Origin: Xenophilus sp. Marseille-Q4582
Lineage (GTDB): Bacteria; Pseudomonadota; Gammaproteobacteria; Burkholderiales; Burkholderiaceae_C
DNA: 64,000 nt
Assembly: GCF_916700565.1 (NCBI RefSeq)
Contig: NZ_CAKAKO010000003.1
Span: forward strand, 310,001 to 374,000
Reading direction: 5' to 3'
Shown here: positions 8,801 through 51,272 of the stretch, piece after piece
Position numbering within the stretch: the first letter of the stretch is position 1
Layout of the letters: each line of letters starts with the position of its first letter
Program-made: the position numbers and the translations under genes
Notes under the pieces: generated by a model
What the model was told of the DNA's origin: nothing
What the model saw: the letters and a program-made list of their open reading frames with translations, nothing else
The model's database searches: none

Positions 8801-8876
8801 CATGCGTTGCTGACAGTCGTCAGCGGCATGCCCTGGCAGTCTCGGTCTTCAAGACTGCAACGCGGTTCGCCGCGTT
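8801..8876 (+). promoter_or_regulatory. Three-stem structured element, copy 1
   Basis: P1: outer CATGC/GCATG (8801-8805 with 8826-8830) enclosing GCTGAC/GTCAGC with loop AGTC. P2: GCAGTC (8836-8841) with GACTGC (8853-8858), 11-nt loop ending CTTCAA. P3: AACGCGG-TTCG-CCGCGTT (8859-8876), a UUCG tetraloop in RNA form. The same architecture recurs at 10743, 12262 and 51198 with compensatory changes. Confidence 0.75.
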
Positions 8877-8955
8877 GACCGATCCAGTCCGCTTCGCATC
8901 GCCCACCGCGGACGCTCGCCGGCCTGGCGACGATGCACTTTTCTCAACCACCCGA

Positions 8956-8989
8956 GGGGAACCCATCCCCTGCGGGATGCGTGCTCCCC
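8956..8989 (+). promoter_or_regulatory. Leader hairpin, copy 1
   Basis: Outer GGGGA/TCCCC (8956-8960 with 8985-8989) and inner CATCCC-CTGC-GGGATG (8964-8979). It is preceded by CCACCC and ends 20 nt before ATG 9010. The SD AAGGAG lies in the interval. Confidence 0.65.
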
Positions 8990-9009
8990 GACCCACCAAG
9001 GAGCACGGC

Positions 9010-9246
9010 ATGTCTGAACCTTCCGCATCTTCCTCTGCAACCGCAGTGCGCAGCGGTGCGCTGGCGCTGGCCTGGACCGGCAAGCGTTTGCCGCTACAGG
9101 TGCTGCGCAGCGCGGCCGGCCACTACATCGGCACGCAAGACGACGAAGGCCCGGTATCGCGGGAGTCCGTCGAGTATTTCCCGAACCACCTCGCAGCACA
9201 GCGCGCCCTGGATACCCATGCCTGGACACAGCGCGCTCACCCCTGA
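9010..9246 (+). CDS. Small ICE protein of unknown function (78 aa)
   Basis: ATG 9010 follows AAGGAG at good spacing. It encodes 78 residues with a compact sequence (LALAWTGKRLPLQVLRSAAG, then YIGTQDDEGPVSRESVEYF and a helical C-terminus) and no signal peptide or membrane segment. I do not recognise the family. It carries both the three-stem element and the leader hairpin upstream, the same arrangement as the STY4534-type gene and radC, so it is likely regulated with them. The next gene starts 25 nt after its stop. Confidence 0.65.
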   Translation: MSEPSASSSATAVRSGALALAWTGKRLPLQVLRSAAGHYIGTQDDEGPVSRESVEYFPNHLAAQRALDTHAWTQRAHP

Positions 9247-9271
9247 TTCCCACCCTTCAAGGAGTTCTCTC

Positions 9272-9664
9272 ATGAATCTGTCTTTACCCGAAGACGTGCT
9301 CGATCAGATGGCGCTGGAACAGGCGCACTTCGACGCTGCACCGCAGGCCTTCTTCGAGGCCTGGAAGCGCGGCGCGCAGATCGCCGGCCACGAGTGGTTC
9401 GGCGACGGCACACGCGAAGGTCTGCAGCGTGCCACCACCAAGTGGGACCTGCGGCCCAACATGCTGATGCTCAACGACGCCCTGGGTGTGCTGAGCAGCG
9501 GTCAACGCATGTTCCTGTCCGCGATGGTGAGCTTCTACAACTCCCGCGAGGGCGGCGCGATGCTCAAGCGTTGCGGCTTCGAGGGGCTGTCCGACTTCGG
9601 CGGCCTCGATCTGGAACGGCGCCAGGTCATCGCCGACCTCACGCTGCACTACAACGGCTGGTGA
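9272..9664 (+). CDS. Conserved ICE hypothetical protein (130 aa)
   Basis: ATG 9272 after TTCAAGGAG. A 130-residue, mostly helical soluble protein (DVLDQMALEQAHFDAAPQAF; ANMLML-like helix; LSSGQRMFLSAMVSFYNSRE). I do not recognise a domain. It is one of few genes in this block with no leader hairpin, consistent with translation from the transcript of the gene 25 nt upstream. Confidence 0.65.
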   Translation: MNLSLPEDVLDQMALEQAHFDAAPQAFFEAWKRGAQIAGHEWFGDGTREGLQRATTKWDLRPNMLMLNDALGVLSSGQRMFLSAMVSFYNSREGGAMLKRCGFEGLSDFGGLDLERRQVIADLTLHYNGW

Positions 9665-9704
9665 GCCGCGCCTGGCAACCCACCGTTCTTTCATCCCACC
9701 CCAC

Positions 9705-9740
9705 GAGGGACATGCGTCCCCGTTCGGGGCCATGTCCCTC
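9705..9740 (+). promoter_or_regulatory. Leader hairpin, copy 2 (before a mini-ORF)
   Basis: Ten outer base pairs GAGGGACATG/CATGTCCCTC (9705-9714 with 9731-9740) and inner CCCC-GTTC-GGGG (9718-9729). It ends 21 nt before ATG 9762, the same spacing as in front of full-length genes. Confidence 0.7.
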
Positions 9741-9761
9741 CTTCCTTTCGCAGGAGCGGCC

Positions 9762-9788
9762 ATGTCCCGAATCACCATCTTCCACTGA
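9762..9788 (+). CDS. Mini-ORF MSRITIFH (8 aa) or remnant gene start
   Basis: ATG 9762 is preceded by CAGGAG and by a complete leader hairpin at the standard distance, yet the frame closes after eight codons (MSRITIFH). Either the leader and start of a gene survive and the rest was lost or frameshifted, or this is a genuine micro-peptide. The following 125 bp contains no coding sequence I can support, only a second leader hairpin for the next gene. Confidence 0.35.
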   Translation: MSRITIFH

Positions 9789-9857
9789 CCTGCACCGCCC
9801 GCCACCAGGGCGGCCCGACGCCGCGGCCGGCTGACCGGTTGCCACTTCATCCACTCG

Positions 9858-9891
9858 CTGGGGTTCAATCCCCGGCAGGGGATTGCCTCGG
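9858..9891 (+). promoter_or_regulatory. Leader hairpin, copy 3
   Basis: Inner AATCCCC-GGCA-GGGGATT (9867-9884) and outer CTGGGG/CCTCGG with two G-T pairs (9858-9863 with 9886-9891). It ends 23 nt before ATG 9915; the SD is TGGAGGAAT. Confidence 0.65.
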
Positions 9892-9914
9892 CCATCCTCT
9901 GCTGGAGGAATCCC

Positions 9915-10631
9915 ATGTCTCATTCCAAAAACCCCTTCGTCCGCGGCTACGATGGCCTGTCCGTGCAGCGGCTGCTGGCGATTTCCTACGACGACGACTG
10001 CCCGCTGAGCTATCTGCCGCTGCACGTCTCGCAGTCGCATCTGCCGGACAGCCAGGTCGAGCGCCATGCCTGCGTCTTCTGCGACGACTTCGCGCTGATC
10101 ACCGAGGGCCAGAACGTGCCGCCCGAGCTGCACGCGCAGTGCCCCAGCCACGGTATCGCCCGAAACCTCGTCTACGCCGTCATGGCCGAAGAAGCCGGCC
10201 AGCCACTGCACGTCGGCGATACCTACTCCGAGGAAGCCGCGCGCGAGGTGGTCCGCCGCCTGCGCTTCGAGACCGGCTTCTACAGCCGTGCCTGGGAAAT
10301 CAGCTCGGCGCACATCACCGAGGAGGCCGGCCGCTTCCTCGCCGAACTGGCGGACATCGCCACGCCGAGCGGTTTCTTGTTCGTGGCCTTCCGCATTCCC
10401 TACAGCCCGGCGGTCGGCGTGAAGCTGATCGCCACGCCCTGGACGGATGCGAACCTGCAGCATGTCGAGGGCATCACCGCCGAAGAGCTGCGGCAGGAGC
10501 ACCGGGCCAAGGGCGTGCCGGAGTCCCTGGTGGAAGTGTTGCACCTGGCTGCGCTCGCTGACGTTCGCATGTTGGTGTTCGATGCCGACGCGCCCGTGCT
10601 GGACGGGCTGACGCTCTACGACGACGAGTAA
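9915..10631 (+). CDS. Conserved ICE hypothetical protein, possibly DUF5983-like
   Basis: A 238-residue soluble protein. The N-terminal half includes AISYDDDCPLSYLPLHVSQS and a His/Cys-containing stretch (RHACVFCDDF) that could bind metal. The C-terminal half (ISSAHITEEAGRFLAELAD to the end, with VRMLVFDADAPVLDGLTLYD) reminds me of DUF5983 proteins. That is a weak recollection and no function follows from it. It is a monocistronic unit with its own leader hairpin upstream and a terminator-like hairpin 14 bp downstream. Confidence 0.65.
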   Translation: MSHSKNPFVRGYDGLSVQRLLAISYDDDCPLSYLPLHVSQSHLPDSQVERHACVFCDDFALITEGQNVPPELHAQCPSHGIARNLVYAVMAEEAGQPLHVGDTYSEEAAREVVRRLRFETGFYSRAWEISSAHITEEAGRFLAELADIATPSGFLFVAFRIPYSPAVGVKLIATPWTDANLQHVEGITAEELRQEHRAKGVPESLVEVLHLAALADVRMLVFDADAPVLDGLTLYDDE

Positions 10632-10645
10632 CCCGCAACCCATTC

Positions 10646-10674
10646 GAGCCCCCACGTCGGGGCTCTTCTTTTTC
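10646..10674 (+). terminator. Rho-independent terminator-like hairpin
   Basis: Stem GAGCCCC/GGGGCTC (10646-10652 with 10659-10665) followed by TTCTTTTT, directly after the gene ending at 10631. Confidence 0.65.
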
Positions 10675-10742
10675 GCGGAACGCGGTGCCGGCGCATTGCC
10701 GATTCCCAACGGACGGCCGCCGCCATGTGCCGCACGCTGGCC

Positions 10743-10816
10743 GCATGTTCGCTGGCGTTGCCGGCAGCATGCCCAGGCAGTCGAGACCTTCAAGACTGCG
10801 GCGCGGTTCGCCGTGC
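10743..10816 (+). promoter_or_regulatory. Three-stem structured element, copy 2
   Basis: P1: outer GCATG/CATGC (10743-10747 with 10768-10772) and inner GCTGGC/GCCGGC (one G-T pair, loop GTT). P2: GCAGTC (10777-10782) with GACTGC (10794-10799), 11-nt loop ending CTTCAA. P3: GCGCGG-TTCG-CCGTGC (10801-10816, one G-T pair). Confidence 0.72.
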
Positions 10817-10863
10817 TGGTTGCTTCGTTCTCCGGGCGCACCCGCGTCCATCCACCTCACCCT

Positions 10864-10900
10864 CAAGGGACAGACCTCCCTTGCGGGCGGGAGTCCCTTG
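10864..10900 (+). promoter_or_regulatory. Leader hairpin, copy 4
   Basis: Outer CAAGGGAC/GTCCCTTG (10864-10871 with 10893-10900), inner CCC-TTGC-GGG (10878-10887). It ends 21 nt before ATG 10922; the SD is AAGGAG. Confidence 0.65.
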
Positions 10901-10921
10901 GTTGCCACAAGGAGTCTCCCC

Positions 10922-11719
10922 ATGGATACCCAAGCCATCCGTGCACAGATGCCAACGCTTGTTGTCGGTCATGTGCCTTCCAACGTCCGTTCGTTCAAGT
11001 TCAACATCTTCGACGGCCAGCCCAAGGTTTCGACGCTGGGCTTTCACATCGACCCGAAGCCTTTCGAGGGCAAGGTCATCGCCACCACCGACGAGGCAAT
11101 CGTCGTCAAGACGGGGCGAGCCGAGTTCGCGGTGCTCGATCGCACGCTCGTGACTGAGGTGCCCGACGAGGGCGCCAAGGTGCAGGTCGAACCCTATGTC
11201 AGACGCCGCTTCGACGGTCAGCGAGCGGACACGCCCGAGGAGCAGACCGAGTTCACCGCCGACGGCCAGCCCTACACGGTGAAGCGGTTGGTGCTCGGGT
11301 CCGCACCGGCGAAGCTGCCGATTCCCAAGCCTCGCTGCCCCGAGCTGCAGGAACTGGTCAACCAACTGGAGCAGTTGCCCGCTCCCGACGGTTTCCGGCG
11401 CGTCACCCACATGCTGGTGGATGCCGGCGCGCGGGACATCACCTGGGTCGATCCGCTGCCCGCCGACATCATCCGCACACCGCCGGCCATCGGCTTCACC
11501 GTCGCCACGACGAAGTTCCACGGTCGCGTCACCGTGCTGTATGAGCGTGGCCTCGACCTCTACGCGGTGGAGCTGCGCCGCGACGGCGAGCTGATCGAAC
11601 GGGTCGATGAGGTGTTCTTCGACACCCTCGGCGAGACGCTGGAACGGCTGATCGACGACGGGAGTTGGCGGCGCATCCGCGTGCAGTGCCTGTCGTGTCG
11701 TAAGGCTATCCGGCACTGA
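10922..11719 (+). CDS. Conserved ICE hypothetical protein (265 aa)
   Basis: ATG 10922 after AAGGAG. A 265-residue protein without signal or membrane segments. The conserved-looking core contains VPSNVRSFKFNIFDGQPKVS, DEAIVVKTGRAEFAVLDR and a C-terminal GFTVATTKFHGRVTVLYERG. It is rich in beta-strand patterns. I do not recognise the family; I recall homologues at this position in Pseudomonas and Xanthomonas ICEs. Upstream are a three-stem element and leader hairpin, and downstream a terminator, so it is an independently controlled unit. Confidence 0.7.
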   Translation: MDTQAIRAQMPTLVVGHVPSNVRSFKFNIFDGQPKVSTLGFHIDPKPFEGKVIATTDEAIVVKTGRAEFAVLDRTLVTEVPDEGAKVQVEPYVRRRFDGQRADTPEEQTEFTADGQPYTVKRLVLGSAPAKLPIPKPRCPELQELVNQLEQLPAPDGFRRVTHMLVDAGARDITWVDPLPADIIRTPPAIGFTVATTKFHGRVTVLYERGLDLYAVELRRDGELIERVDEVFFDTLGETLERLIDDGSWRRIRVQCLSCRKAIRH

Positions 11720-11729
11720 TCTCACAGCA

Positions 11730-11761
11730 GCTTCCCGCCCTCGCGGCGGGAAGCCGTTTTT
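11730..11761 (+). terminator. Rho-independent terminator
   Basis: Ten-bp stem GCTTCCCGCC/GGCGGGAAGC (11730-11739 with 11745-11754), 5-nt loop, then CG and TTTTT. It lies 10 bp after the preceding stop and 23 bp before the next ATG. Confidence 0.75.
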
Positions 11762-11784
11762 CCTGCCCCCTGGAGATCACACTC

Positions 11785-12150
11785 ATGACTGTTCGATTCA
11801 AAGGCACGGAGCTGCGGCCCGTGCTCGCCGAAGCGGTGGCGAATCAATGCCGCGTCATCCTGGTCAAGGATCAGGGCGTGTACTTCCTGGCCGAGTGCGG
11901 CGAGCGCCGACCCGATGGTCGCCAGAAGACCATCGCCTATGCCGCCGGTTGCAACCCGGATGTCGATGCCTTCGACGACTGGTGGGAACTGGCGCGTGCC
12001 GAGTTCGGTGGCGACGACTTCGGCGAGTTCTTCGATCCGCAGGAGGGCGTGTTTGCGCGCATCCTGCGCAGCGAGGACGACCTCGACGTGTCCGCCACCG
12101 CGACACACCTGTCGCTGCAGGCGGTTCCTCCCACGCCCAGCGGTAACTGA
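11785..12150 (+). CDS. DUF3085 family protein
   Basis: A 121-residue protein fitting the DUF3085 family as I recall it (RFKGTELRPVLAEAVANQCR, VILVKDQGVYFLAECGE, YAAGCNPDVDAFDDWWELAR, GGDDFGEFFDPQEGVFARIL). Function unknown; it is a small acidic protein common in conjugative elements. ATG 11785 follows TGGAG. There is no leader hairpin here; only the terminator of the previous gene lies between, so reading through that terminator or a compact promoter must supply transcription. Confidence 0.7.
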   Translation: MTVRFKGTELRPVLAEAVANQCRVILVKDQGVYFLAECGERRPDGRQKTIAYAAGCNPDVDAFDDWWELARAEFGGDDFGEFFDPQEGVFARILRSEDDLDVSATATHLSLQAVPPTPSGN

Positions 12151-12162
12151 CCGCCCATCCCT

Positions 12163-12190
12163 GGTCCCCGCTCCGGGGGCCTCTTTCTTC
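12163..12190 (+). terminator. Terminator-like hairpin
   Basis: Stem GGTCCCC/GGGGGCC (12163-12169 with 12175-12181, one G-T pair) followed by TCTTTCTT, just after the DUF3085 gene. Confidence 0.5.
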
Positions 12191-12261
12191 CCGGCAATGC
12201 GGACAGCCGCGAGTGCCGATTGCCGCTCGCCTGCGCGCCGTCCCGGCGCCACGCTTCCGGC

Positions 12262-12339
12262 CATGTTCCGCTGACGTCCGTCAGCGACATGCCCAGGCAG
12301 CCACGATCTTCAAGGCTGCGACGCGGTTCCGACCGCGTT
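12262..12339 (+). promoter_or_regulatory. Three-stem structured element, copy 3
   Basis: P1: outer CATGT/ACATG (12262-12266 with 12287-12291) and inner CGCTGAC/GTCAGCG, loop GTCC. P2: GCAGCC (12297-12302) with GGCTGC (12314-12319), 11-nt loop ending CTTCAA. P3: ACGCGGT-TCCG-ACCGCGT (12321-12338), a UNCG-type loop. Relative to copy 1, P1 and P2 each show paired base changes. It fills much of the 343-bp gap before the STY4534-type gene. Confidence 0.75.
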
Positions 12340-12424
12340 GATCACCCCAGTTCGCACCGGCATCCATGCGCGAACGGCCATCGGTTTTCGATGGCGATGC
12401 CACCAAGCTGTTCCATCAACCCGC

Positions 12425-12469
12425 GCGGGGGTTCCACACCTTCCCCGCCTGGGTCGGGTGTGTCTCCGC
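12425..12469 (+). promoter_or_regulatory. Leader hairpin, copy 5
   Basis: Outer GCGGGGG/TCTCCGC type pairing (12425-12431 with 12463-12469, two G-T), then CACACC/GGTGTG (12435-12440 with 12457-12462), and inner CCC-GCCT-GGG. It ends 24 nt before ATG 12494; the SD is CAGGAG. Confidence 0.65.
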
Positions 12470-12493
12470 CTCATTGTTCTCAGGAGATTCACC

Positions 12494-13045
12494 ATGACCA
12501 CTTCCACCGAAAAGTCCTACTTCGATCTGCACATCACCGGCCTCGGGTATCTCAATCGCATCCGCGAAGTGAAGCCCAAGAAAGGCGATGCGTTCCTGGC
12601 CTGCGACATCGCGGCTCTGAACGGTCCCAGCGATGACGTCTCGTATGTGCGTTTCGACACGCGCGTATCGGGTTCGGAAGCGCAGCACCTGGTGCGCCGC
12701 TGCATTCAGGCGGTCGACGCCGAGAAGAAGGTGATGATCGGCTTCCGCATGGGCGACCTGTGGACCGACACCTTCACCTACTCCAAGGGCAAGCGTGCCG
12801 GCGAGCAGGGTGTGAGCCTCAAGGCCCGCCTGCTGTTCGTCAGTTGGATCAAGGTCGACGGCAAGCTCGTCTACAAGGCCGAACCCAAGCCGACCGAGAC
12901 CGACGAGCGCGAGCCGGAAGTCCCTGTGACGTCCGACGCGCCCGCTGCGCAGCAAGCCTCGGCACCGGAGCCTTCCAAGCCCGTCGCCGATGCTGCCGAC
13001 GACGCTGCCGACGCCCCCGCATTGGCCGTTGCCGAGTCGTTCTGA
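12494..13045 (+). CDS. STY4534-family ICE replication protein (DUF3577)
   Basis: A 183-residue protein of the STY4534/DUF3577 family. Core residues 5-125 (KSYFDLHITGLGYLNRIREV, PKKGDAFLACDIAALNGPSD, VRFDTRVSGSEAQHLVRRC, MGDLWTDTFTYSKGKRAG) resemble an SSB-like OB fold. The last 55 residues are an acidic Pro/Ala tail, as in single-strand binding proteins that recruit partners. It probably acts in ICE replication; the family name is established, the mechanism is not. The upstream region holds both RNA-like elements, and a terminator-like hairpin follows. Confidence 0.82.
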   Translation: MTTSTEKSYFDLHITGLGYLNRIREVKPKKGDAFLACDIAALNGPSDDVSYVRFDTRVSGSEAQHLVRRCIQAVDAEKKVMIGFRMGDLWTDTFTYSKGKRAGEQGVSLKARLLFVSWIKVDGKLVYKAEPKPTETDEREPEVPVTSDAPAAQQASAPEPSKPVADAADDAADAPALAVAESF

Positions 13046-13050
13046 TCCGC

Positions 13051-13085
13051 AAGGCCCCATCCCCGGGGCCTTGTCTTCTCTTCGT
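13051..13085 (+). terminator. Terminator-like hairpin
   Basis: Stem AAGGCCCC/GGGGCCTT (13051-13058 with 13065-13072) followed by GTCTTCTCTTC. It lies in the 55-bp gap between the STY4534-type gene and DUF3275; the T-run is interrupted, so it may only attenuate. Confidence 0.5.
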
Positions 13086-13100
13086 CAGCAGGAGACCTTC

Positions 13101-13712: not shown

Positions 13713-13746
13713 TCCATCCGCCGCCTCGCGCGGCATTCCGCCACCC

Positions 13747-13780: not shown

Positions 13781-13801
13781 CATTTCTTCAAGGAGACCCT
13801 C

Positions 13802-14167: not shown

Positions 14168-14189
14168 CGGCACGCATCTTCCTTCACCC

Positions 14190-14902: not shown

Positions 14903-14912
14903 GCCATTCCCA

Positions 14913-27412: not shown

Positions 27413-27729
27413 TTCAGCCGGCGGTCGAGCTCCGCCTGGGCGAAAAACGCGCTGGCCAGCTTGAGGATCTCGTTGGCGCGGCGAAGCTCGCGCACTTCGC
27501 GCTCCAGTTCCTTGACGCGCTTGGCCTCGGCCGTGGTCACGCCTTCGCGTTGACCCGTGTCACGCTCGTGCTGACGCACCCAGTTCAGCAGCGTCTGCGG
27601 CGTGCTGCCGATCTTGCCGGCGATCGATACAACCGCCGCCCATTGCGATTCGTGCTCCTCTCGGTGCTCGAACACCATGCGCACCGCACGCTCGCGAACC
27701 TCCGGCGAAAACTTCACTGACTTCCTCAT
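27409..27729 (-). CDS. IS3-family transposase OrfA
   Basis: 106 residues: an N-terminal helix-turn-helix ([39 protein letters not shown]) and a leucine-zipper-like C-terminus ([20 protein letters not shown]). It ends [12 protein letters not shown], typical of the IS407/IS51 branch. It binds the IS ends and supplies the N-terminus of the OrfAB fusion. Confidence 0.9.
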
Positions 27730-31046: not shown

Positions 31047-31067
31047 GGCAGATGAGAAAAAAGAGAG

Positions 31068-32430: not shown

Positions 32431-32447
32431 GGTGTGGGTCCTCCGGC

Positions 32448-33857: not shown

Positions 33858-34135
33858 GGCCGCACCTCGACACCGCGCCAGAACGCCACCCTGCCGGTCA
33901 CCGCCTCCGCACCAGCCTTGGGCGACGGGTAGTACCACGCCGCGTCAGCGTTCACGTCTTCGCCGACCACGACGTCGTAGTAGCTGGCCCGCCCCTTCCA
34001 TGGACAGGTGGTGTGCGTATCGCTTGGTTTGAAATGTTCCGGGCGCAACGCGTCGTGTGGGAAATAGGCGTTGCCTTCAACTTCCACGATGTCATCGCTC
34101 TCAGCGATGGTGGTGCCTTTCCAGATGGCTCTCAT
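33854..34135 (-). CDS. DUF427 domain protein
   Basis: A compact 93-residue DUF427 protein: MRAIWKGTTIAESDDIVEVE, GNAYFPHDALRPEHF, TTCPWKGRASYYDVVVGE and AAWYYPSPKAGAEAVTGRVA. The family is a small beta-tent fold of unknown function. Its conserved CPWKG motif is seen here. ATG 34135 is the first codon consistent with family N-termini. It overlaps the RclA-like gene and lies 32 nt after the hydrolase-OsmC gene. Confidence 0.85.
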   Translation of the reverse strand: MRAIWKGTTIAESDDIVEVEGNAYFPHDALRPEHFKPSDTHTTCPWKGRASYYDVVVGEDVNADAAWYYPSPKAGAEAVTGRVAFWRGVEVRP

Positions 34136-34167
34136 GCTCCGTCTCCTTCGTTTGTGTGTGGTTGGGA

Positions 34168-35388: not shown

Positions 35389-36356
35389 GCTTTCTCCAGT
35401 GCCAGGGCGTTGATGCAGTAGCGCAGACCGCTGGGCTTGGGTCCGTCGGGAAACACGTGACCCAGGTGGGCGTCGCAGACGTTGCACGTCGTCTCCACCC
35501 GCACCATGCCGTGGCTGTTGTCTCCGTGATAGCCCACCAGACCCGGGGCAATGGCCTGCGTGAAGCTGGGCCAGCCGCTGCGGCTGTCATATTTGGTCGA
35601 CGCATCGAATAGTTCAGTGCCGCAGCACACGCACCGGTAGATCCCGGGCGAAAACAGCGTACACATCGAGGAGCTGTGCGCCCGTTCGGTGCCCTTGAGC
35701 CGCGTGATTCGGAACTGCTCGGGCGTCAGCTGTTGGGCCCACTCGGCTTCGCTGCGCTCAACTCGGCGCGGTGGCGTCGGGTTGCCCGTTTCCACCAGTT
35801 GAATCACTCCTTTCCAAGTCAACATGTCGGGCCCAGGCTCCGGTGCCGCCGGTTCGTTTTCCAGCCGCTTGAGAAAGGTGACGAGCTTGTCGGCGTCGAT
35901 TCGGAAATGGTTGTAGACCACTCTGCCATCGGGATCGATCAGGATGAACCAGGGTGTGCCGCCGTTGCGGTAGCGGCGCATCAGCTCCGAACCCGCGCCG
36001 TCCTGTTCGTCACCGGCGTCGTGCCCGAAGGGAATGCCCAGCGCGTAGCGGGAGTGATTGGCCAGCATGCGCTCCCAGGTGTTCGAACCGAAGTCCTCGA
36101 ACACGGTCTGGACTGCGGCGAACCCGACGAAGTCGCTCCCCCGAAACGCGTCGACCACCCGGGCAAGCGCCGGAAAGCCGGTCGCATGGCACCCCGGGCA
36201 GGCGTCCTGAAAACAGAAGATGAGCTTGAACCGGCCGGGCATGCGGTCCAGGTCGAAGTGTTCCAGCGCCTGGCCCGACGCGTCCACCCACCGGGTCACA
36301 CCCAGGGGAGCGGCCGCTTCGCCAAGGACACCGGGTTCCTGTTTCGTTGTGGTCAT
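35385..36356 (-). CDS. msrB: Redoxin-MsrB fusion (peptide methionine-R-sulfoxide reductase)
   Basis: 323 residues. The N-terminal 175 residues are a thioredoxin/AhpC-like domain with CPGC in FCFQDACPGCHATGFPAL and cis-Pro in GGTPWFILIDP. The C-terminal 140 residues are MsrB: zinc pairs CVCC and CNVC, GWPSFTQAI, and catalytic Cys in GLRYCINALAL. MsrB reduces methionine-R-sulfoxide; the fused redoxin could recycle it. ATG 36356 follows AAGGAG. It lies 36 nt after selO. Confidence 0.9.
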   Translation of the reverse strand: MTTTKQEPGVLGEAAAPLGVTRWVDASGQALEHFDLDRMPGRFKLIFCFQDACPGCHATGFPALARVVDAFRGSDFVGFAAVQTVFEDFGSNTWERMLANHSRYALGIPFGHDAGDEQDGAGSELMRRYRNGGTPWFILIDPDGRVVYNHFRIDADKLVTFLKRLENEPAAPEPGPDMLTWKGVIQLVETGNPTPPRRVERSEAEWAQQLTPEQFRITRLKGTERAHSSSMCTLFSPGIYRCVCCGTELFDASTKYDSRSGWPSFTQAIAPGLVGYHGDNSHGMVRVETTCNVCDAHLGHVFPDGPKPSGLRYCINALALEKA

Positions 36357-36392
36357 GCGAAGTCTCCTTTCAGAAATCGTTGGGTACCCCAA

Positions 36393-37925
36393 TCAGGTGC
36401 CGCAGAAGGTGCGGTGGGCTGCGGCCACTTCGGGCGAGGCCGGCAGCGTGAATGGCCGCGCGGACTCCACCGTCTCGTACGGCCGCCCCAGCACCGCCAG
36501 CAGGCGCTCGAACGGACCGAGGTCGGCCTCGTCCACGGCACTCGACAGCGCCGCCTCCACCTGGTGATTGCGCGGGATCACGAAGGGATTGACCGACCAC
36601 GCCGTTGCGGCGCAGTCCTGCAAGGTCCTTCCCTCCCGGGCCATGCGCTGGCGCCAGCGCGCCAGCCAGTCCGAGAGCGCCGGGCGCTCCCGTCCGAACA
36701 GGTCGTGCAGTGCGGCATCCGGCCCCGTGATGGCGTCGGACAGGAGGCGGAACGCCAGCGTGAAGTCCACCTTTTCCCGCTGCAGCAGCTGCAGGAAGTC
36801 GTCCGCCAGGGCGCGGTCGTCCGGCTCTTCAGCGGCCAAGCCCAGCTTGGCGCGCAGCTGCCCGGTCCAATGCCGGTCAAAGCGCACGGCAAACCCGGCC
36901 ACCACCTGTTCCACCCGTTCCACGACGTCGATATCGCGGGCGTCCAGAACCGGCAGCAACGCTTCGGCCAGACGGGCCAGGTTCCATTGCGCCATGGCCG
37001 GCTGCTGGCCGTAGGCATATCGCCCCTGACGGTCGATCGAGCTGAACACCGTGGCCGGATCGAAACCCTCCATGAACGCACACGGACCATAGTCGATGGT
37101 CTCGCCCGAAATGCTCATGTTGTCGGTGTTCATCACCCCGTGGATGAAGCCCACGCCCATCCAGCGTGCAATCAGCTGCGCCTGCCGCTCACAGACGGCC
37201 TCCAGCATCGGAGTGGGCTTGTCGGAAAGCTTGGCGAGGGCGGGGTCATGCCGCGCCACGGCATAGTCAAGCAGCCGCCGAAGCATCACCTCCTCCTCCC
37301 GCGCCGCGAAGAACTCAAAAGTGCCCACCCGCAAGTGGCTGGCCGCCACGCGCACCAAGATCGCCCCGGGGGGCGAGCCCTCGCGGTTCACCCGCTCACC
37401 GGTCCGGATCACCGCCAGCGCACGCGTCGTGGGAATGCCCAACGCGTGCATGGCCTCGCCCATGAGGTACTCGCGCAGCGCCGGGCCCAGTGCCGCCTTG
37501 CCATCGCCACGGCGCGAAAACGGCGTACGGCCCGACCCCTTGAGGGCCAGGTCCCGACGCTGTCCTGCCGTGTCGATGAGTTCCCCGAGCAGCAAGGCGC
37601 GGCCATCCCCCAAGTGTGGCGAGAACTGGCCGAACTGGTGTCCCGCGTAGGCCTGCGCCAGCGGCGCCGCCTCAGCCGGCATTTCCACGCCGGACAGCCA
37701 CGCCAGACCGGTCGCAGACTTCAGCGTCGCCGGCTCCAGCCCCAGCTCCAGCGCCAGGGCGTCGTTGAACTGCACCCAGGCCGGGGCCGGGGACGGCTCG
37801 GGCTTCCAAGGCACATAGAACCCCTGCATGTCCCGGAAGAAGCTGTTGTCAAACGGCAGCCGAAACGCCGGGCCCGTCCCCGGCGTCTTCGGCTCCGACA
37901 CGGCCTTTGGTGTGGACGCACGCAT
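36393..37925 (-). CDS. selO: Protein adenylyltransferase SelO (YdiU)
   Basis: A 510-residue SelO pseudokinase that transfers AMP to proteins, linked to redox stress. Seen: LAQAYAGHQFGQFSPHLGDG, RDLALKGSGRTPFSRRGDGK, EYLMGEAMHALGIPTTRAL, the active-site region VGFIHGVMNTDNMSISGETI and DYGPC, and EAALSSAVDEADLGPF. The C-terminal tail ends TFCGT, with Cys at the place where eukaryotic SELENOO carries selenocysteine. Start ATG 37925 lies 4 nt after the upstream redoxin stop. Confidence 0.92.
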   Translation of the reverse strand: MRASTPKAVSEPKTPGTGPAFRLPFDNSFFRDMQGFYVPWKPEPSPAPAWVQFNDALALELGLEPATLKSATGLAWLSGVEMPAEAAPLAQAYAGHQFGQFSPHLGDGRALLLGELIDTAGQRRDLALKGSGRTPFSRRGDGKAALGPALREYLMGEAMHALGIPTTRALAVIRTGERVNREGSPPGAILVRVAASHLRVGTFEFFAAREEEVMLRRLLDYAVARHDPALAKLSDKPTPMLEAVCERQAQLIARWMGVGFIHGVMNTDNMSISGETIDYGPCAFMEGFDPATVFSSIDRQGRYAYGQQPAMAQWNLARLAEALLPVLDARDIDVVERVEQVVAGFAVRFDRHWTGQLRAKLGLAAEEPDDRALADDFLQLLQREKVDFTLAFRLLSDAITGPDAALHDLFGRERPALSDWLARWRQRMAREGRTLQDCAATAWSVNPFVIPRNHQVEAALSSAVDEADLGPFERLLAVLGRPYETVESARPFTLPASPEVAAAHRTFCGT

Positions 37926-37929
37926 GACT

Positions 37930-38417
37930 TCAGGCCGCCTTGAGACCATCGTTCGAAGCGCCGAACGCCCCGATCAGCTGCCGCTCGTCGAGCTCGAAGT
38001 CGCTGTAGAGCACCTCGTCCAGCGGATCGATCACCAAAACCACGGCGTGCCGCGCGTCCCGTAGTCCGCCATGAGCGACGACGCGCGTCCGATCGCAGGG
38101 TCGTGTCCGAACGGAATGTTCAAGCCGTAGCGCAACTGCGTCTCGCGCAGGCGCTCGAAGGTGTTGGACTCGGCGCCCTCGAACACGGTCTGCACCGCGG
38201 CAAACGCGAAGCCGCGATCGCCCAACGCCTTGATCAGCTTCTGCAGGGTCGGAAAGCCATGGCTGTGGCAGCCCGGACACCAGTGCTGGAAGCAGAAGAT
38301 CACTTTGAACCCGTCGCCCAGATCGGACAGCTTCAGCGGTGCCATGCTGCGCCCTTCGCCGTCGATCCACCACGGCACCCGCAGCTCGGGCGCCTGTTGA
38401 ATGCACCGGGATTGCAT
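37930..38417 (-). pseudogene. Redoxin/thioredoxin-like protein, frameshifted
   Basis: Start ATG 38417 after GAGGAG. The frame gives a redoxin closely resembling the N-terminal domain of the redoxin-MsrB fusion (IFCFQHWCPGCHSHGFP, FAFAAVQTVFEGAESNTFER, YGLNIPFGHDPAIGR) but stops after GTPWFW. The expected continuation (VLVIDPLDEVLYSDFELDER, ending GLKAA at 37930) is in another frame. Adding one base in the A-run at 38036-38039 would restore about 163 residues. Either a real indel or a sequencing error. Confidence 0.8.
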
Positions 38418-38502
38418 CACCATCTCCTCAGGAAAAAAACAGACACACCGGGTCGGCCCGCCCACTGGCGCGCCGACCCCCACCGTTCTTGAGCGTTGGC
38501 CG

Positions 38503-39012
38503 TCAGCCGATCTCGCGTCGCGGCAGCTTCCAGCCCGCACGGGGGTAGTGGCAGGTGTAGCCGTTGGGGTGCTTGACCAGGTAGTCCTGATGCTCGGGCT
38601 CGGCCTCCCAGAACGGCCCCGCGGGCGCGAGCTCGGTGACCACCTTGCCCGGCCACAAACCCGAGGCATTCACATCGGCAATGGTCTGCTGCGCCGTGGC
38701 CAGCTGCTCGTCCGAGGTGTAGAAAATGGCCGACCGGTAGGAACTGCCGCGGTCATTGCCCTGGCGCCCCGGGGTGCTCGGATCGTGGATCTGGAAGAAG
38801 AACTCCAGCAGGTCGCGAAAGCTCGTCTGCGTGGGGTCGAACTCCACCTCCAACGCCTCGGCGTGGGTGCCGTGGTTGCGGTAGGTGGCGTTGGGCACAT
38901 CGCCGCCGCTGTAGCCCACACGGGTGCGCAACACGCCAGGCAGCTTGCGCACCAGGTCCTGCATGCCCCAGAAACAACCGCCGGCCAGGACTGCTTTTTC
39001 AGTCGGGTTCAT
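38503..39012 (-). CDS. msrA: Peptide methionine-S-sulfoxide reductase MsrA
   Basis: A 169-residue MsrA. Catalytic C13 lies in [13 protein letters not shown], with [57 protein letters not shown] and the C-terminal [12 protein letters not shown]. It lacks the C-terminal recycling cysteines of E. coli MsrA, so it probably uses one neighbouring redoxin or thioredoxin. ATG 39012 follows AAGGAG. Together with the MsrB fusion it covers both sulfoxide diastereomers. It is the first enzyme gene after the regulator (123-bp gap). Confidence 0.93.
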
Positions 39013-39135
39013 CGTGATCTCCTTCAAAGTTCTGCCTCAAGGCATTGAACCTGAAGTCGGGTCCGTTCGTCAAACACAACGGCATTCGGCGTCCGCATCA
39101 CGCCACCGATCGTCCAGAACCAGGGCGCGATGGAC

Positions 39136-39987
39136 CTACGGCTGACTCAGATGCTCCATCTGCCAAGCGCTGGGCGATTGCCCCGAGGCCCGTTGAAACG
39201 CTCGCGCGAATGCGGTGGCATTACCGTAGCCCACCTGAGAGGCCACCGCCTTCACTGCCTGCCCTTGCGCGAGTAGGTTGCGGGCAACCGCCATGCGCCA
39301 GTGGGTCAAGTAGGTCAACGGCGGTATGCCCACCACCTGGACAAAGCGCAGGGCAAAGGCAGACCGGGACAGGTGCGCCAGCTCCGCCATGCTGTCAAGC
39401 GTCCAGTCGTGCTCTGGCGATTCGTGCAGCATGGACAGCACCACACCCAGACGGCTGTCGACCATGGCCTCCAGCACACCGCCGGACAGCAGTTGCCGAT
39501 CAATCAGGTGACGCACAAGCACCACGAAGGTGTATTGCAGCAGGCGGTCGATCGCTGCCCGATAACCAAAAGCACGTGCCTCGGCCTCCTCGAACAGCAG
39601 CTCTACCGGTCGCTGCAGCGATGACGTGGCGGTCAAGTCAATCACCGTGACGTCCGGCAAGATCATGTCCAGCGGCGGCGCCAATTCACTGAGGGTGGCG
39701 CACATCAGGTCCACCCCCTGCGGCCCTGAGCCCTGAACCCAGTGCTCCAACGCGCGGGGAAGCAACAGCACGCTGGGCGCCCGCACGTTCAGCGGCGCAA
39801 AGCCCTTGCGCGTCAGTTGCAGCTCGCCGCGACTCAGCAGGTGCATCGTCCCCTGCTTGAGGCCGTCAGCCTCGGATCCCTGCGTCAGGGTACAGAGATT
39901 TCCCGAGAAAAACATGCGCGCCGTGGGGGTGAACCGTAACAGCTGGTTCAGCAGAGAGGCGTTCGGCAAGGGAGTGCTTTGGTTCAA
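39136..39987 (-). CDS. AraC-family regulator, RclR-like
   Basis: 283 residues. The N-terminal cupin_6-type sensor domain has cysteines C32 and C96, and the C-terminal double HTH (LSRSAFALRFVQVVGIPPLT; AVASQVGYGNATAFARAFQR) is AraC type. E. coli RclR, also AraC with a cupin_6 domain, senses hypochlorous acid through two cysteines a similar distance apart, so a redox sensor is likely by analogy. The start is TTG 39987; the next in-frame ATG would remove part of the sensor domain. It heads the leftward operon and is divergent from glnS across 69 bp. Confidence 0.82.
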   Translation of the reverse strand: MNQSTPLPNASLLNQLLRFTPTARMFFSGNLCTLTQGSEADGLKQGTMHLLSRGELQLTRKGFAPLNVRAPSVLLLPRALEHWVQGSGPQGVDLMCATLSELAPPLDMILPDVTVIDLTATSSLQRPVELLFEEAEARAFGYRAAIDRLLQYTFVVLVRHLIDRQLLSGGVLEAMVDSRLGVVLSMLHESPEHDWTLDSMAELAHLSRSAFALRFVQVVGIPPLTYLTHWRMAVARNLLAQGQAVKAVASQVGYGNATAFARAFQRASGQSPSAWQMEHLSQP

Positions 39988-40056
39988 GCGCGTGACACCT
40001 GTTGTGGGTTAGACCTTGATTATCTTGGAGCTTCCGCCTCTCCTTAGAATGACTGC

Positions 40057-41916
<1,860 letters not shown>

Positions 41917-47589: not shown

Positions 47590-50477
47590 TGGCCTGGTCG
47601 CTGCCGTGGTCACGCAAGCCCGGCGCATCGCCTGTTGACGCCGCGGATGCGACCGATGATGCCTGGGCACGGCACGTAACGGCCTTGGCGGCACAGGGTG
47701 TCGCCGAGCCGGGCAGCGCGCTCGGCCGGGGCCGGCGCAGGCCGGCCACCCAGGCCGACCACGATGCGCTCTATGGCGTCGCGCCGTCGTTCGCGGACTT
47801 GCTGCCCTGGGTCGAGTACCTGCCCGGCAGCAAGTGCATGTTGCTGGAAGACGGCCAGTCGGTGGCGGCCTTCTTCGAGCTGGCGCCGGTCGGCACCGAG
47901 GGCCGTGAGATAGCCTGGCTGTGGCAGGCGCGCGATGCGCTGGAGAACGCCCTGCAGGACTCCTTCGACGAGTTGGACGACAACCCTTGGGTGGTGCAGC
48001 TCTACGCCCAGGACGAGGCCGGCTGGGACAACTATCTGCGCTCCCTGGCGAACTATCTGCAGCCGCGTGCGCAGGACAGCGCGTTCAGCGACTTCTACCT
48101 GCGCTTCTTCGCCCATCACCTGCGGGCCATCGCCAAGCCGGGTGGCCTGTTCGAGGACACCACGGTGACGCGCCTGCCGTGGCGCGGCCAGGTCCGGCGC
48201 GTGCGCATGGTGGTCTACCGGCGCACGTCCGCAGCCCCGGCCCCGCGGCGCGGCCAGTCGCCCGAGCAGGCGCTGACCACGATCTGCGACCGCCTCGCCG
48301 GCGGGCTGGCGAATGCCGGCGTGAAAGCCCGGCGTCTCGGCGCGGCGGACATCCACGCCTGGCTGCTGCGCTGGTTCAACCCGAATCCGACTTTGCTCGG
48401 CGCCACTGCCGAAGATCGGGAACGCTTCTACGCGCTGACCCGCTACCCGGAAGAGCGGGAGGAGGGCGAGATCGAACTCGCCAGCGGCACCGACTTCGCA
48501 CAACGGCTGTTCTTCGGCCAGCCATGCTCGGACGTGCCCAACGGCCTGTGGTTCTTCGACGGCATGCCGCATCGGGTGATCGTGATGGATCGTCTGCGCA
48601 CGCCACCCGTGACGGGCCATCTGACGGGCGAGACGCGCAAGGGCGGCGATGCCATGAACGCGCTGTTCGATCAGATGCCCGAGGACACGGTGATGTGCCT
48701 GACGCTGGTCGCCACGCCCCAGGACGTGCTGGAGGCGCACCTCAACCACCTCGCCAGGAAGGCCGTCGGCGAGACCCTGGCCTCGGAGCAGACCCGGCAG
48801 GACGTGCAGCAGGCGCGCGGCCTGATCGGCAGCGCGCACAAGCTCTACCGCGGCGCGCTGGCGTTCTACCTGCGCGGCCGCGACCTGGCCCAGCTCGATG
48901 CGCGCGGCCTGCAGCTCGTCAACGTGATGCTCAACGCCGGCCTGCAACCGGTACGCGAAGAGGACGAGGTGGCGCCGCTGAACAGCTATTTGCGCTGGCT
49001 GCCGTGCGTGTTCGATCCGGCTTCCGACAAGCGCCAGTGGTACACACAGCTCATGTTCGCGCAACACGTGGCGAACCTGGCGCCGGTCTGGGGCCGCAGT
49101 CAGGGCACGGGGCATCCGGGCATCACGTTCTTCAACCGCGGCGGGGGCCCGATCACCTTCGATCCGTTGAACCGCCTCGACCGGCAGATGAACGCGCACC
49201 TGTTCCTGTTCGGCCCCACGGGTTCGGGCAAGAGCGCGACGCTCAACAACATCCTGAACCAGGTCACGGCGATCTATCGGCCGCGCCTGTTCATCGTCGA
49301 GGCGGGCAACAGCTTCGGCCTGTTTGGCGACTTCGCGGCACGGCTGGGTCTCACCGTGCATCGGGTGAAACTTGCACCCGGCGCGGGCGTCAGTCTGGCT
49401 CCGTTCGCCGACGCCTGGCGCCTGGTCGATACGCCGAGCCAGGTACAGACGCTGGACGCCGATGCGCTCGACGAAGACCAGACCGATGCCGGCATGGCCG
49501 TGGAGGGCGACGAGCAGCGCGACGTGCTCGGCGAGCTGGAGATCACTGCACGACTGATGATCACCGGCGGCGAGGACAAGGAAGAAGCGCGCATGACGCG
49601 CGCCGACCGCAGTCTGATCCGCCAGTGCATTCTCGATGCGGCACAGCGCTGCGTAGCGGAGAAGCGCACGGTACTGACCCGCGATGTGCGCGACGCGCTG
49701 CGCGAGCGCGCCCGCGATGCGACGCTGCCGGAGATGCGGCGCGCACGGCTGCTGGAGATGGCCGACGCCATGGATATGTTCTGCCAGGGCGTGGACGGCG
49801 AGATGTTCGACCGGTCCGGCACGCCGTGGCCCGAGGCGGACATCACCATCGTGGATCTCGCCACCTTCGCGCGCGAGGGCTACAACGCCCAACTCTCGAT
49901 TGCCTACATCTCGCTCATCAACACCGTCAACAACATCGCCGAGCGCGACCAGTTCCTGGGCCGCCCGATCATCAACGTGACGGACGAAGGCCACATCATC
50001 ACGAAGAACCTGCTGCTTGCGCCCTACGTGGTCAAGATCACCAAGATGTGGCGCAAGCTCGGCGCCTGGTTCTGGCTCGCCACGCAGAACCTGGACGACC
50101 TGCCGAAAGCGGCCGAGCCCATGCTCAACATGATCGAGTGGTGGATCTGCCTGTCGATGCCACCCGATGAAGTCGAGAAGATCGCGCGCTTCCGCGAACT
50201 CAACGCTTCGCAGAAGGCGCTGATGCTCTCGGCACGCAAGGAGGCCGGCAAGTTCAGCGAGGGCGTCATCCTGTCCAAGTCGATGGAAGTGCTGTTCCGC
50301 GCTGTGCCGCCCAGCCTCTACCTGGCGATGGCGATGACCGAACCCGAGGAGAAGGCCGAACGCTTCCAGTTGATGCAGCAGCACGGCATCAGCGAGCTGG
50401 ATGCCGCCTTCCGCGTGGCCGACAAGATCGACCGTGCGCGGGGCATCGAACCCCTGGCGCTGGACACGTTGGCCTGA
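47589..50477 (+). CDS. traC: Conjugative transfer ATPase, PFL_4706 family (TraC/VirB4-like)
   Basis: 962 residues. Walker A LFGPTGSGKSATLNN at about 541-549, and Walker B PIINVTDEGHIIT near 795. ATQNLDDLPKAAEPMLNMIE is a conserved arginine-finger-side motif, and the N-terminal TraC-type domain contains SFADLLPWVEYLPGSKCMLL. An insertion with EDKEEARMTRADRSLIRQC matches the family. It powers assembly of the transfer apparatus at the inner membrane. Length is normal. Confidence 0.95.
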   Translation: MAWSLPWSRKPGASPVDAADATDDAWARHVTALAAQGVAEPGSALGRGRRRPATQADHDALYGVAPSFADLLPWVEYLPGSKCMLLEDGQSVAAFFELAPVGTEGREIAWLWQARDALENALQDSFDELDDNPWVVQLYAQDEAGWDNYLRSLANYLQPRAQDSAFSDFYLRFFAHHLRAIAKPGGLFEDTTVTRLPWRGQVRRVRMVVYRRTSAAPAPRRGQSPEQALTTICDRLAGGLANAGVKARRLGAADIHAWLLRWFNPNPTLLGATAEDRERFYALTRYPEEREEGEIELASGTDFAQRLFFGQPCSDVPNGLWFFDGMPHRVIVMDRLRTPPVTGHLTGETRKGGDAMNALFDQMPEDTVMCLTLVATPQDVLEAHLNHLARKAVGETLASEQTRQDVQQARGLIGSAHKLYRGALAFYLRGRDLAQLDARGLQLVNVMLNAGLQPVREEDEVAPLNSYLRWLPCVFDPASDKRQWYTQLMFAQHVANLAPVWGRSQGTGHPGITFFNRGGGPITFDPLNRLDRQMNAHLFLFGPTGSGKSATLNNILNQVTAIYRPRLFIVEAGNSFGLFGDFAARLGLTVHRVKLAPGAGVSLAPFADAWRLVDTPSQVQTLDADALDEDQTDAGMAVEGDEQRDVLGELEITARLMITGGEDKEEARMTRADRSLIRQCILDAAQRCVAEKRTVLTRDVRDALRERARDATLPEMRRARLLEMADAMDMFCQGVDGEMFDRSGTPWPEADITIVDLATFAREGYNAQLSIAYISLINTVNNIAERDQFLGRPIINVTDEGHIITKNLLLAPYVVKITKMWRKLGAWFWLATQNLDDLPKAAEPMLNMIEWWICLSMPPDEVEKIARFRELNASQKALMLSARKEAGKFSEGVILSKSMEVLFRAVPPSLYLAMAMTEPEEKAERFQLMQQHGISELDAAFRVADKIDRARGIEPLALDTLA

Positions 50478-50490
50478 CGGGAGCAACACG

Positions 50491-51234
50491 ATGCGCCTGC
50501 CTTCATTCGCCCGCCGTCATCCCTGGATCGGTCTGCTGATCGTGGCGACGATTGCAGTGGCCTCGTGGATGCTGCTGCGCGCGCCGCATCCGGCAACCGA
50601 GCCCATGTCCCCGGCCGCCGCCGGTTTCGAAGCGTCGAAACCGGCTGGCCCGCCCTGGCTGTATGGCCGTGCCGATGCGCGCTTCACGGTGGTCGGGTAC
50701 GCCGACCTGGAGTGTCCGTACTGCCGGGCCTACTTCCCCGAACTCAAGCGCTGGATCGACGCCCATCCCGAGGTGAACTGGCAGTGGCACCACCTGCCGC
50801 TGTCCATGCACGAGCCGGCTGCGACTGCCGGGGCACGCCTGGCCGAGTGCGCGGGCGAGACGGGCGGGCATGCCACGTTCTGGCAAGCCGTGGCGTGGCT
50901 CTACGCGAACACCCGTGGCGACGGCCAGGGCCTGCCGGAAGGCCTGCGCTATCCCGACCTCACGCCAGCCATGCAGGGTTGTCTCGACAGCGATCGCCCC
51001 GATGCCGTCATCCGTGCCCAGGCGGCGGAAGCGGCACAGCAGGGCATCGCGGCCACGCCGGCCCTGCAACTGCGCGACCGCGAGTCCGGCAAGACCCTCC
51101 TGCTGCACGGCCCCGTCGAAGGCGATGCCTTGCTGTCGGCCATCGACCTGCTCGCCGCCGGCAACACGACCGCAGCCGAACCTGCCCATTCCCCAGACAT
51201 GCCCGCCGGCGTTGCCGGTGACATGCCCAGGTAG
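50491..51234 (+). CDS. DsbA-like thioredoxin-fold protein
   Basis: 247 residues with an N-terminal signal anchor (IGLLIVATIAVASWMLL) and a periplasmic DsbA/DsbG-like domain: VVGYADLECPYCRAYFPELK carries the CPYC active site, and cis-Pro is in GIAATPALQLRD. It probably forms disulfides in transfer proteins such as the TraU- and TraH-like products encoded downstream. The last 12 codons overlap P1 of a three-stem element, so the C-terminus (SPDMPAGVAGDMPR) is shaped by a nucleic-acid signal. Confidence 0.87.
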   Translation: MRLPSFARRHPWIGLLIVATIAVASWMLLRAPHPATEPMSPAAAGFEASKPAGPPWLYGRADARFTVVGYADLECPYCRAYFPELKRWIDAHPEVNWQWHHLPLSMHEPAATAGARLAECAGETGGHATFWQAVAWLYANTRGDGQGLPEGLRYPDLTPAMQGCLDSDRPDAVIRAQAAEAAQQGIAATPALQLRDRESGKTLLLHGPVEGDALLSAIDLLAAGNTTAAEPAHSPDMPAGVAGDMPR

Positions 51235-51272
51235 CCATCGATCTTCAAGGCTGCGGCGCGGCTCGTCCGCGT
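51198..51272 (+). promoter_or_regulatory. Three-stem structured element, copy 4
   Basis: P1: outer CATG/CATG (51198-51201 with 51222-51225) and inner CCGGC-GTT-GCCGG (51206-51218). P2: GTAGCC (51231-51236) with GGCTGC (51249-51254, one T-G pair), 12-nt loop ending CTTCAA. P3: GCGCGG/CCGCGT (51256-51261 with 51267-51272). It overlaps the end of the DsbA-like gene. Confidence 0.7.

Follow-up and report, generated by a model that had tools for sequence, protein, structure and literature searches.

A twice-pseudoknotted radC RNA as a predicted 5′ leader of operons in ICEclc-type integrative and conjugative elements

The radC RNA (Rfam RF01754) is a bacterial RNA family of unknown function, described as a table row in Weinberg et al. 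2010 (PMC2864571). A CaCoFold re-analysis (PMC7657543) places radC/RF01754 among the families with more covarying pairs than the database structure; which pairs these are is given in its supplement, and that supplement, or ZWD, may already contain one or both of the pseudoknots described below. The closest functional setting is that of ICEclc, an integrative and conjugative element (ICE) in which BisDC activates the transfer-competence promoters, and dependence on BisDC and InrR places open reading frames (ORFs) 88400 and 81655 in the transfer-competence regulon (PMC9286271). The papers on this regulon (PMC9286271, PMC2892462) describe promoters and a 27-bp DNA motif, and the words ‘radC’, ‘untranslated’ and ‘leader’ are absent from the main text of PMC9286271. 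Our searches on radC RNA, limited to the accessible literature, returned no paper tying it to ICEclc; the link to ICEclc and the pseudoknots may be known elsewhere. The current study concerns a 64,000-nt stretch of Xenophilus sp. Marseille-Q4582 (assembly GCF_916700565.1, contig NZ_CAKAKO010000003.1, positions 310,001 to 374,000; hereafter the window), in which a structured element recurs four times. We identify this element as radC RNA and propose, with a probability of roughly 60%, that a leader of about 140 nt containing two pseudoknots forms the 5′ end of several operons of ICEclc-type ICEs, where it would protect the message in cis and gate translation. New here are a refined fold, a predicted place at the 5′ end of messages and a connection with a regulon already under study, whereas the function is a proposal.

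All four copies match RF01754 on the plus strand over model positions 1-149 of 149: copy 1 at 8791-8936 (121.8 bits), copy 2 at 10734-10890 (100.2 bits), copy 3 at 12252-12400 (131.0 bits) and copy 4 at 51188-51338 (138.2 bits). The E values run from 1.7e-26 to 7.3e-18 and each score far exceeds the gathering cut-off of 40 bits, so that chance is no serious option. The copies share the P1/P2/P3 architecture with covariation and the position upstream of Proteobacteria genes, and the element is an already known RNA family rather than a new one. A first inspection of the letters (the sequence-only reading) had placed four three-stem copies here; P1 with its nested stem P1b, P2 and P3 were located again at the same places, and the intervals then reported end 106-158 nt upstream of the start codons, in keeping with the distance claimed. 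Its count of four holds for the window, whereas the genome has nine matches above cut-off, the other five lying on contig C6. Positions 132772-162957 of C6, with these five radC RNAs, are apparently a second ICE, nearer to the subtype of P. xenovorans LB400. The RNA is present in 9 of 399 evenly drawn genomes of the order and 2 of 369 of the class (the source genome is counted in both), and occurs on ICEs or plasmids of Pseudomonas, Stutzerimonas, Enterobacter, Xanthomonas, Cupriavidus and others; the viral contigs searched gave 0 matches, as did a genome pattern scan for CTTCAAG and the inrR promoter. The likeness to STAXI (RF01728) that had been suggested extends to DNA-handling mobile-element genes nearby, UUCG loops and pseudoknots. 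However, STAXI consists of one pseudoknot in two or three tandem repeats and is found in Enterobacteriales, whereas the window element occurs as single copies spaced 1.5-39 kb apart, and RF01728 had no match in the window at its gathering threshold and none at E<=10 in 8600-12800 (copy 4 lies outside this looser search).

The fold extends beyond the pairing that Infernal prints for the Rfam model, namely P1, P2 and P3 followed on the 3′ side by a hairpin whose outer helix has 3 bp. This outer helix is paired in 73.6% of cells and shows no double changes among 109 distinct rows, and thus no covariation; we replace or supplement it with P4/P5 and PK1, which are absent from the Rfam pairing. P4 (G[TC][TC]CGC with GCG[AG][AG]C) interleaves with P5 (GCATCn with nGATGC), and together they make an H-type pseudoknot around hairpin P6, while in PK1 four bases of the P2 loop pair with bases 3′ of P3. 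PK1 is present in all four window copies. The three stems seen earlier are real but make up only the 5′ half of the RNA, as in copies 1, 3 and 4 a second structured domain, the P4/P5 pseudoknot, runs 60-66 nt further 3′.

Both pseudoknots are supported by alignments of relatives. In an alignment based on our model R1, which included P5 and P6 (so that counts for these two are partly model-fitted) but neither P4 nor PK1, 96.1% of P4 and 90.9% of PK1 cells are paired; 44 rows lack a fifth PK1 pair, and the core of four bases fails in 4 cells. A structure-free MAFFT alignment of 133 distinct copies, from which a probably false minus-strand match of 26.8 bits on locus L139 was left out, gives 97.7% pairing for PK1 (128 rows without gaps), 89.8% for P4 (133 rows) and 98.7% for P5 (over only 53 rows). 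At least 5 of the 6 P4 pairs form in 115 of the 133 copies, and of the 18 that fall short, 14 belong to the 265-aa type while 4 have no assigned type. Pairing is kept in these 133 copies while the letters change: P4 occurs as GTTCGC/GCGAAC (48), GTCCGC/GCGGAC (24) and GCTCGC/GCGAGC (23), and rarely as GATCGC/GCGATC, GACCGC/GCGGTC or GTGCGC/GCGCAC (3 each), and PK1 as GATC/GATC (52), GGTC/GACC (43) and GACC with GGTT or GGTC (19). When compensatory branch events were counted on a tree against 400 simulated controls, P2 (8), P3 (16), P5 (14) and P6 (12) had counts that no simulation reached; PK1, P1b and P4 had 3 each, a count reached in 3, 9 and 10 simulations, respectively. P1 had none, its CAUG pairs hardly varying. 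The earlier argument for selection on the structure is borne out by P2, P3 and P1b and by the pairing retained in P4 and PK1. The UNCG-type loops also recur among relatives: of 109 distinct aligned copies, 57 have a P3 loop of UNCG, with or without one extra pair, and 4 have GNRA. The P2 loop ending in CTTCAA is constant in the window only, since relatives also have CTTCG, CATCG or CCTCA before the last A. Changes giving G-U outnumber those giving A-C on the gene-sense strand (events 73:27, slid controls 276:177, p=0.014; cells 240:54), a bias that modestly favours this strand at the level of events.

In the window, all helices lie on the plus strand. Copy 1 (8801..8936) has P1 at 8801-8804/8827-8830, P1b at 8809-8814/8819-8824, P2 at 8836-8841/8853-8858, PK1 at 8843-8847/8877-8881, P3 at 8859-8865/8870-8876, P4 at 8887-8892/8908-8913, P5 at 8896-8901/8931-8936 and P6 at 8916-8920/8926-8930 (5′ strand by eye). 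Copy 2 (10744..10821) is a variant without the P4/P5 domain, with the 5′ strand of P1 at 10744-10747, P2 at 10777-10782/10794-10799, PK1 at 10785-10788/10818-10821 (3′ strand by eye) and P3 at 10800-10806/10811-10817. Copy 3 (12262..12401) has P1 at 12262-12265/12288-12291, P1b at 12270-12275/12280-12285, P2 at 12297-12302/12314-12319, PK1 at 12305-12308/12340-12343, P3 at 12321-12326/12333-12338, P4 at 12350-12355/12370-12375, P5 at 12359-12364/12396-12401 and P6 at 12378-12383/12389-12394. Copy 4 (51198..51338), of the RadC type, has P1 at 51198-51201/51222-51225, P1b at 51205-51210/51214-51219, P2 at 51231-51236/51249-51254, PK1 at 51239-51243/51274-51278, P3 at 51255-51261/51267-51273, P4 at 51285-51290/51306-51311, P5 at 51294-51299/51333-51338 and P6 at 51314-51320/51325-51331. 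These coordinates combine the RF01754 matches with the located helices.

Conserved signals immediately before P1 suggest where the RNA begins. Of 128 distinct upstream regions of types other than RadC, 122 have a -10-like hexamer, [CG]ANN[CA]T, at 4-7 nt before P1, compared with a mean of 3.3% and a largest value of 7.8% in shuffled regions; none of the 9 RadC-type regions has it. This count excludes 13 of 170 elements (9 from type 89247) that lacked an ATG in the place searched for P1, and collapses identical upstream stretches to 137 regions; for type 89247, mostly missed in this way, a fixed anchor finds the hexamer in 10 of 11. The first ten positions of the RF01754 model contain, in types other than RadC, an apparent -10 promoter element. 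The same types share an upstream block that ends just before P1, with forms of AAnnnGG ... TGCCG[AT]TT ... CAnnCT; its middle part is weaker in type 89247 and the RadC type has no block. In the window the hexamer is CATCCT at 8790..8795 (+), 5 nt before P1 of copy 1 and resembling the published PinR -10, and CACGCT at 10733..10738 (+) and 12250..12255 (+) before copies 2 and 3. The block, placed by eye and type consensus, lies at 8750..8764 (+) in a diverged TGCCG[AT]TT form and as TGCCGATT at 10697..10704 (+) and 12214..12221 (+); of promoters like the BisDC-activated ones of ICEclc, the window shows only this conserved block. Terminator-like hairpins with T-rich tails stand upstream of copies 2 (10646..10675, +) and 3 (12163..12191, +). 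TTGAC lies between -41 and -34 in 18 of 20 distinct plasmid copies from Stutzerimonas and Pseudomonas, at exactly -34 in 14, and in 14 of these 18 a NANNNT hexamer follows 17 nt past it. With the hexamer at a nearly fixed place and TTGAC on the plasmids, an RNA start at or within a few bases of P1 is the natural reading, so that most copies should be 5′-terminal mRNA leaders rather than promoters or single-stranded DNA signals. The RNA-regulator reading offered from the letters alone is supported; signs of action as RNA in the cell are indirect and consist of this hexamer, the G-U bias and a weak published 5′-end product. Copy 4 differs in that it starts within the 3′ end of a preceding ORF (50401-51234). 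The corresponding ICEclc region, before ORF58432, shows no read drop and was judged to have a weak or no independent promoter (PMC9286271), while a separate 4.7-kb Northern band is reported for it (PMC2892462); processing near the internal RadC copy would reconcile the two.

The genes behind the RNA differ. On the plus strand, copy 1 is followed by a 78-aa gene of unknown function (9010..9246; no PADLOC or Pfam match), copy 2 by a 265-aa gene (10922..11719; a weak KfrB match only, E 0.0013, below cut-off), copy 3 by a STY4534-family (DUF3577) ICE replication gene (12494..13045; NF040584, 202.5 bits; PF12101) and copy 4 by a RadC/JAB-domain gene (51430..51924; PF04002, E 3.4e-43). The leader hairpin noted earlier behind each copy is present, but stands apart from the RNA fold and takes different forms in the different types; from copy 4 to RadC such hairpins occupy 51370..51429 (+, by eye) and the Shine-Dalgarno GGAGG is predicted to be paired. 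Initial searching with the model yielded 229 matches across 97 sources; of these matches 20, partial or duplicate and picked by eye, were not carried on; the remaining 209 represent 170 distinct elements. In 156 of the 170, one of eight reference proteins comes next on the same strand, 21-114 nt past the modelled end (the 78-aa reference was translated from 9011, one base off the true start at 9010), and in the other 14 an ORF of at least 50 aa starts on the same strand within 138 nt; most loci were found via the STY4534 gene or RF01754 itself, and the counts do not measure how exclusive this setting is. On plasmids the same RNA precedes an Rpn-family nuclease gene and other genes. The different genes behind it and promoter types before it indicate that the leader is a shared module. 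A duplicated coding or transposon fragment, considered as an origin in the sequence-only reading, was rejected, the divergent types each having their own gene family. The window itself is an ICE of the ICEclc/PFGI-1 class, with a MobH/PFGI-1 relaxase, TraD, TraC ATPase, topoisomerase III, TIGR0374x/375x proteins, STY4528, STY4534 and PFL_4669. Strong terminator-like hairpins lie between genes downstream of its radC RNAs, at 11730, 13049, 13747, 18906 and 51958; ICEclc is reported to make long transcripts where the window has such hairpins (PMC2892462).

The related element of P. xenovorans LB400 (loci L128-L131) ties the RNA to the ICEclc programme. It has five radC RNAs above cut-off, preceding ORF89247, 88400, 84835, 81655 and RadC/58432, and the promoter regions of 88400, 81655 and 58432 are among those studied in ICEclc. 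The correspondence is arithmetic on ORF ends rather than a comparison with the B13 sequence: LB400 ends match ICEclc numbers 91884, 94175, 96323, 89746, 81655, 67231, 66625, 58432 and 50240 with two constant offsets. The PinR boxes of LB400 are identical to the published ICEclc ones, with a T at the published distance of 25 nt from the start of ORF95213; the ICEclc PinR promoter has a similar -10, TGTCGATCCT, with the start 7 nt on. A PinR-like promoter, TTGACT-N17-TGCCGATGCT, also lies at window 4142-4174; many related loci share its boxes and a large part of its spacer (GACnGCCTTCCG), a recurrence suggestive of a protein site. In published dot blots (PMC2892462), by 24 h of stationary phase ORF81655 rises from 10.2 to 168, ORF84835 from 0.4 to 9.5 and ORF87986 from 5 to 64.5; only these three of 21 probes rise more than 10-fold, the other 18 by about 1.5-fold at most. 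In LB400, each of the three is the first or the second gene after a radC RNA. For ORF81655 a very weak primer extension gave a 5′ end about 250 nt upstream (PMC2892462), and P1 lies 225 nt before the ORF81655 ATG in LB400. The stretch before ORF81655 also has the highest read coverage of all, without higher reporter protein (PMC9286271), in keeping with the leader proposed here.

Computation shows the family membership, both pseudoknots, the orientation and the conserved -10 position, whereas the transcription start, action in cis, stabilisation, the gating of translation and a possible partner, be it ligand or protein, are inferred. Transcription would begin at or near P1, so that the 5′ end of the mRNA is buried in structure; the RadC copy, internal to its operon, may mark a processing site. 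The leader would act in cis by protecting the 5′ end of the message and would gate translation of the following gene, and the first genes would thereby reach high levels in the small share of stationary-phase cells that are transfer-competent. The Shine-Dalgarno sequence is predicted to be masked in 104 of 104 scored leaders of the RadC, STY4534 and 265-aa types, with a mean P(unpaired) of 0.0 for RadC (n=9). The fold, the 5′-terminal position, the accumulation of first genes and this predicted masking point to post-transcriptional control in cis.

Several observations weigh against this proposal. Only 38% of 16 scored leaders of the 78-aa type (40 in all) and 0 of 10 of type 89247 (11 in all) are masked, as are 41% of 17 control genes (7 of 24 had no Shine-Dalgarno sequence and were left out), which argues against a single translation switch. 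A stricter, R-scape-like pairwise test, the kind of check that the sequence-only reading had called for, found 4 of 48 proposed pairs significant (4 of 11,325 pairs), all in P5/P6, helices already in the aligning model, with none elsewhere in the structure and none outside it; the test is underpowered. In the dot blots, later genes of led operons (75419, 73029, 68987 and 83350) and ORF53587, far behind RadC, show no comparable rise (PMC2892462), and the link that they provide is suggestive only, because in the tiling arrays of the same study transcripts without radC RNA also rise (log2 5.6 and 5.8). Published 5′-RACE failed at ORF81655, 88400, 58432 and three other places, and the accessible data contain no mapped transcription start on any radC RNA; Rfam-positive 5′ UTRs of P. 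aeruginosa PA14, a carrier of PAPI-1, are stated to be tabulated in PMC3460626 (Table S3). Reporter fragments from upstream of ORF84835 and 89247 were inactive, though their types carry the -10 and the block, and that of ORF58432 was weakly active, though the RadC type has no -10-like hexamer (PMC9286271). Deletion of ORF88400-84388 or ORF81655-75419 is reported to cause no measurable change in transfer or in the share of competent cells.

Other explanations of the same RNA were weighed. The elaborate conserved fold, the masking predicted in three of five gene types and the fact that the three transcripts highly induced only after growth on 3-chlorobenzoate or fructose (PMC2892462) carry radC RNA heads in LB400 would all suit a metabolite riboswitch, in which a small molecule reporting stationary phase or carbon state opens the Shine-Dalgarno sequence. 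We consider this unlikely, as the downstream genes are mobile-element functions with no evident common metabolic pathway, there is no common expression platform (the 78-aa and 89247 types are mostly unmasked) and BisDC promoter control accounts for the same induction. Processive antitermination by RNA is known from the put and EAR families, and a radC RNA of this kind would let polymerase pass the strong terminator-like sites after led-operon genes named above. Its 5′-terminal position and the 14.3-kb unit 68241-81655 listed in PMC2892462 (8.5 kb on the Northern) would fit such a role. However, mRNA at 24 h drops steeply past the first gene (81655 168 versus 75419 11; 84835 9.5 versus 83350 0.9), so most messages stop or decay, and terminator-like sites also stand directly before copies 2 and 3, which makes antitermination improbable. 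A trans-acting small RNA released from the leader would explain the mismatch between top read coverage and reporter protein before ORF81655 (PMC9286271), but all 170 distinct copies sit shortly before a same-strand ORF and this origin seems very unlikely.

Two further explanations place the function in DNA. BisDC acts in an FlhDC-like manner, and the element could be a double-stranded promoter or BisDC-binding site misfiled as RNA. A 27-bp motif is indeed reported to be common to 8 of the 9 bimodal promoters, those of 88400, 81655 and 58432 among them (PMC9286271), and our own motif search picked P1b of the RNA at 81655 and 58432. Against this reading, the same search, which ran without a shuffled control and in which solutions 1-2 units lower pick another inrR site, put the end of the inrR site about 151 bp from where transcription was mapped to start, compared with 152 as published, and for 88400 it chose the GCCGTTTT block, which lies upstream of the RNA. 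The RadC type has neither block nor hexamer, plasmid relatives retain the fold with a TTGAC-type promoter, and changes preserve pairing rather than sequence, so that we give a DNA element of this type very little credence. Equating the published motif with P2 was rejected, because the inrR site whose distance agrees with the published one is an upstream block; the motif may be mixed, since our search took P1b at 81655 and 58432. The folded single-stranded DNA signal for conjugation raised in the sequence-only reading draws on the occurrence of several copies per element, on one strand, on ICEs and plasmids, although loci were mostly chosen via an ICE gene. For most copies it is highly improbable, given the -10-like hexamer at nearly fixed spacing before P1, the TTGAC 17 nt further up in most plasmid copies and the block conserved in types other than RadC; the excess of G-U compared with A-C is what the gene-sense strand would give, but alone it is compatible with same-sense DNA.

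Other features were seen in the window and in related loci. Cargo at 28867-41913 resembles an oxidative/reactive-chlorine stress set, in which matches to models of EgtD, MsrB, YdiU/SelO and a full glutamine-tRNA ligase exceed the cut-offs, and RclA/MerA-like FAD oxidoreductase, OsmC-like and RclR-like matches fall below them. An ALIL frameshift pseudoknot (RF01497, 108.7 bits) at 27335-27451 (-) spans ORFs 26504-27412 and 27409-27729 in what looks like an IS3-type element, the smaller ORF having no NCBIfam match at 1e-10, and an IS5-family transposase ORF at 63466-63873 covers model positions 4-114 of 258 only. In LB400, group II intron domains (RF02001, RF01998) lie at L129 4056-4347. A 177-bp ORF labelled OXA-573 beta-lactamase by PLSDB/RGI (L138 3330-3506, L142 8159-8335, L143 8331-8507) encodes a product under 60 aa, and the label is probably an artefact.

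For an orphan RNA family published in 2010, these results offer a revised fold together with a predicted start of the transcript, and they place the RNA within the genetically tractable differentiation programme of ICEclc in Pseudomonas putida. A tentative and rather doubtful extension is that the leader is switchable and responds to a small molecule or an element protein such as InrR, and would then form a post-transcriptional checkpoint in the bistable transfer-competence programme of ICEclc-type, pKLC102/PAPI-type and related elements. Since the same leader is found on ICEs or plasmids of several genera, one function could explain post-transcriptional control across a large class of conjugative elements.

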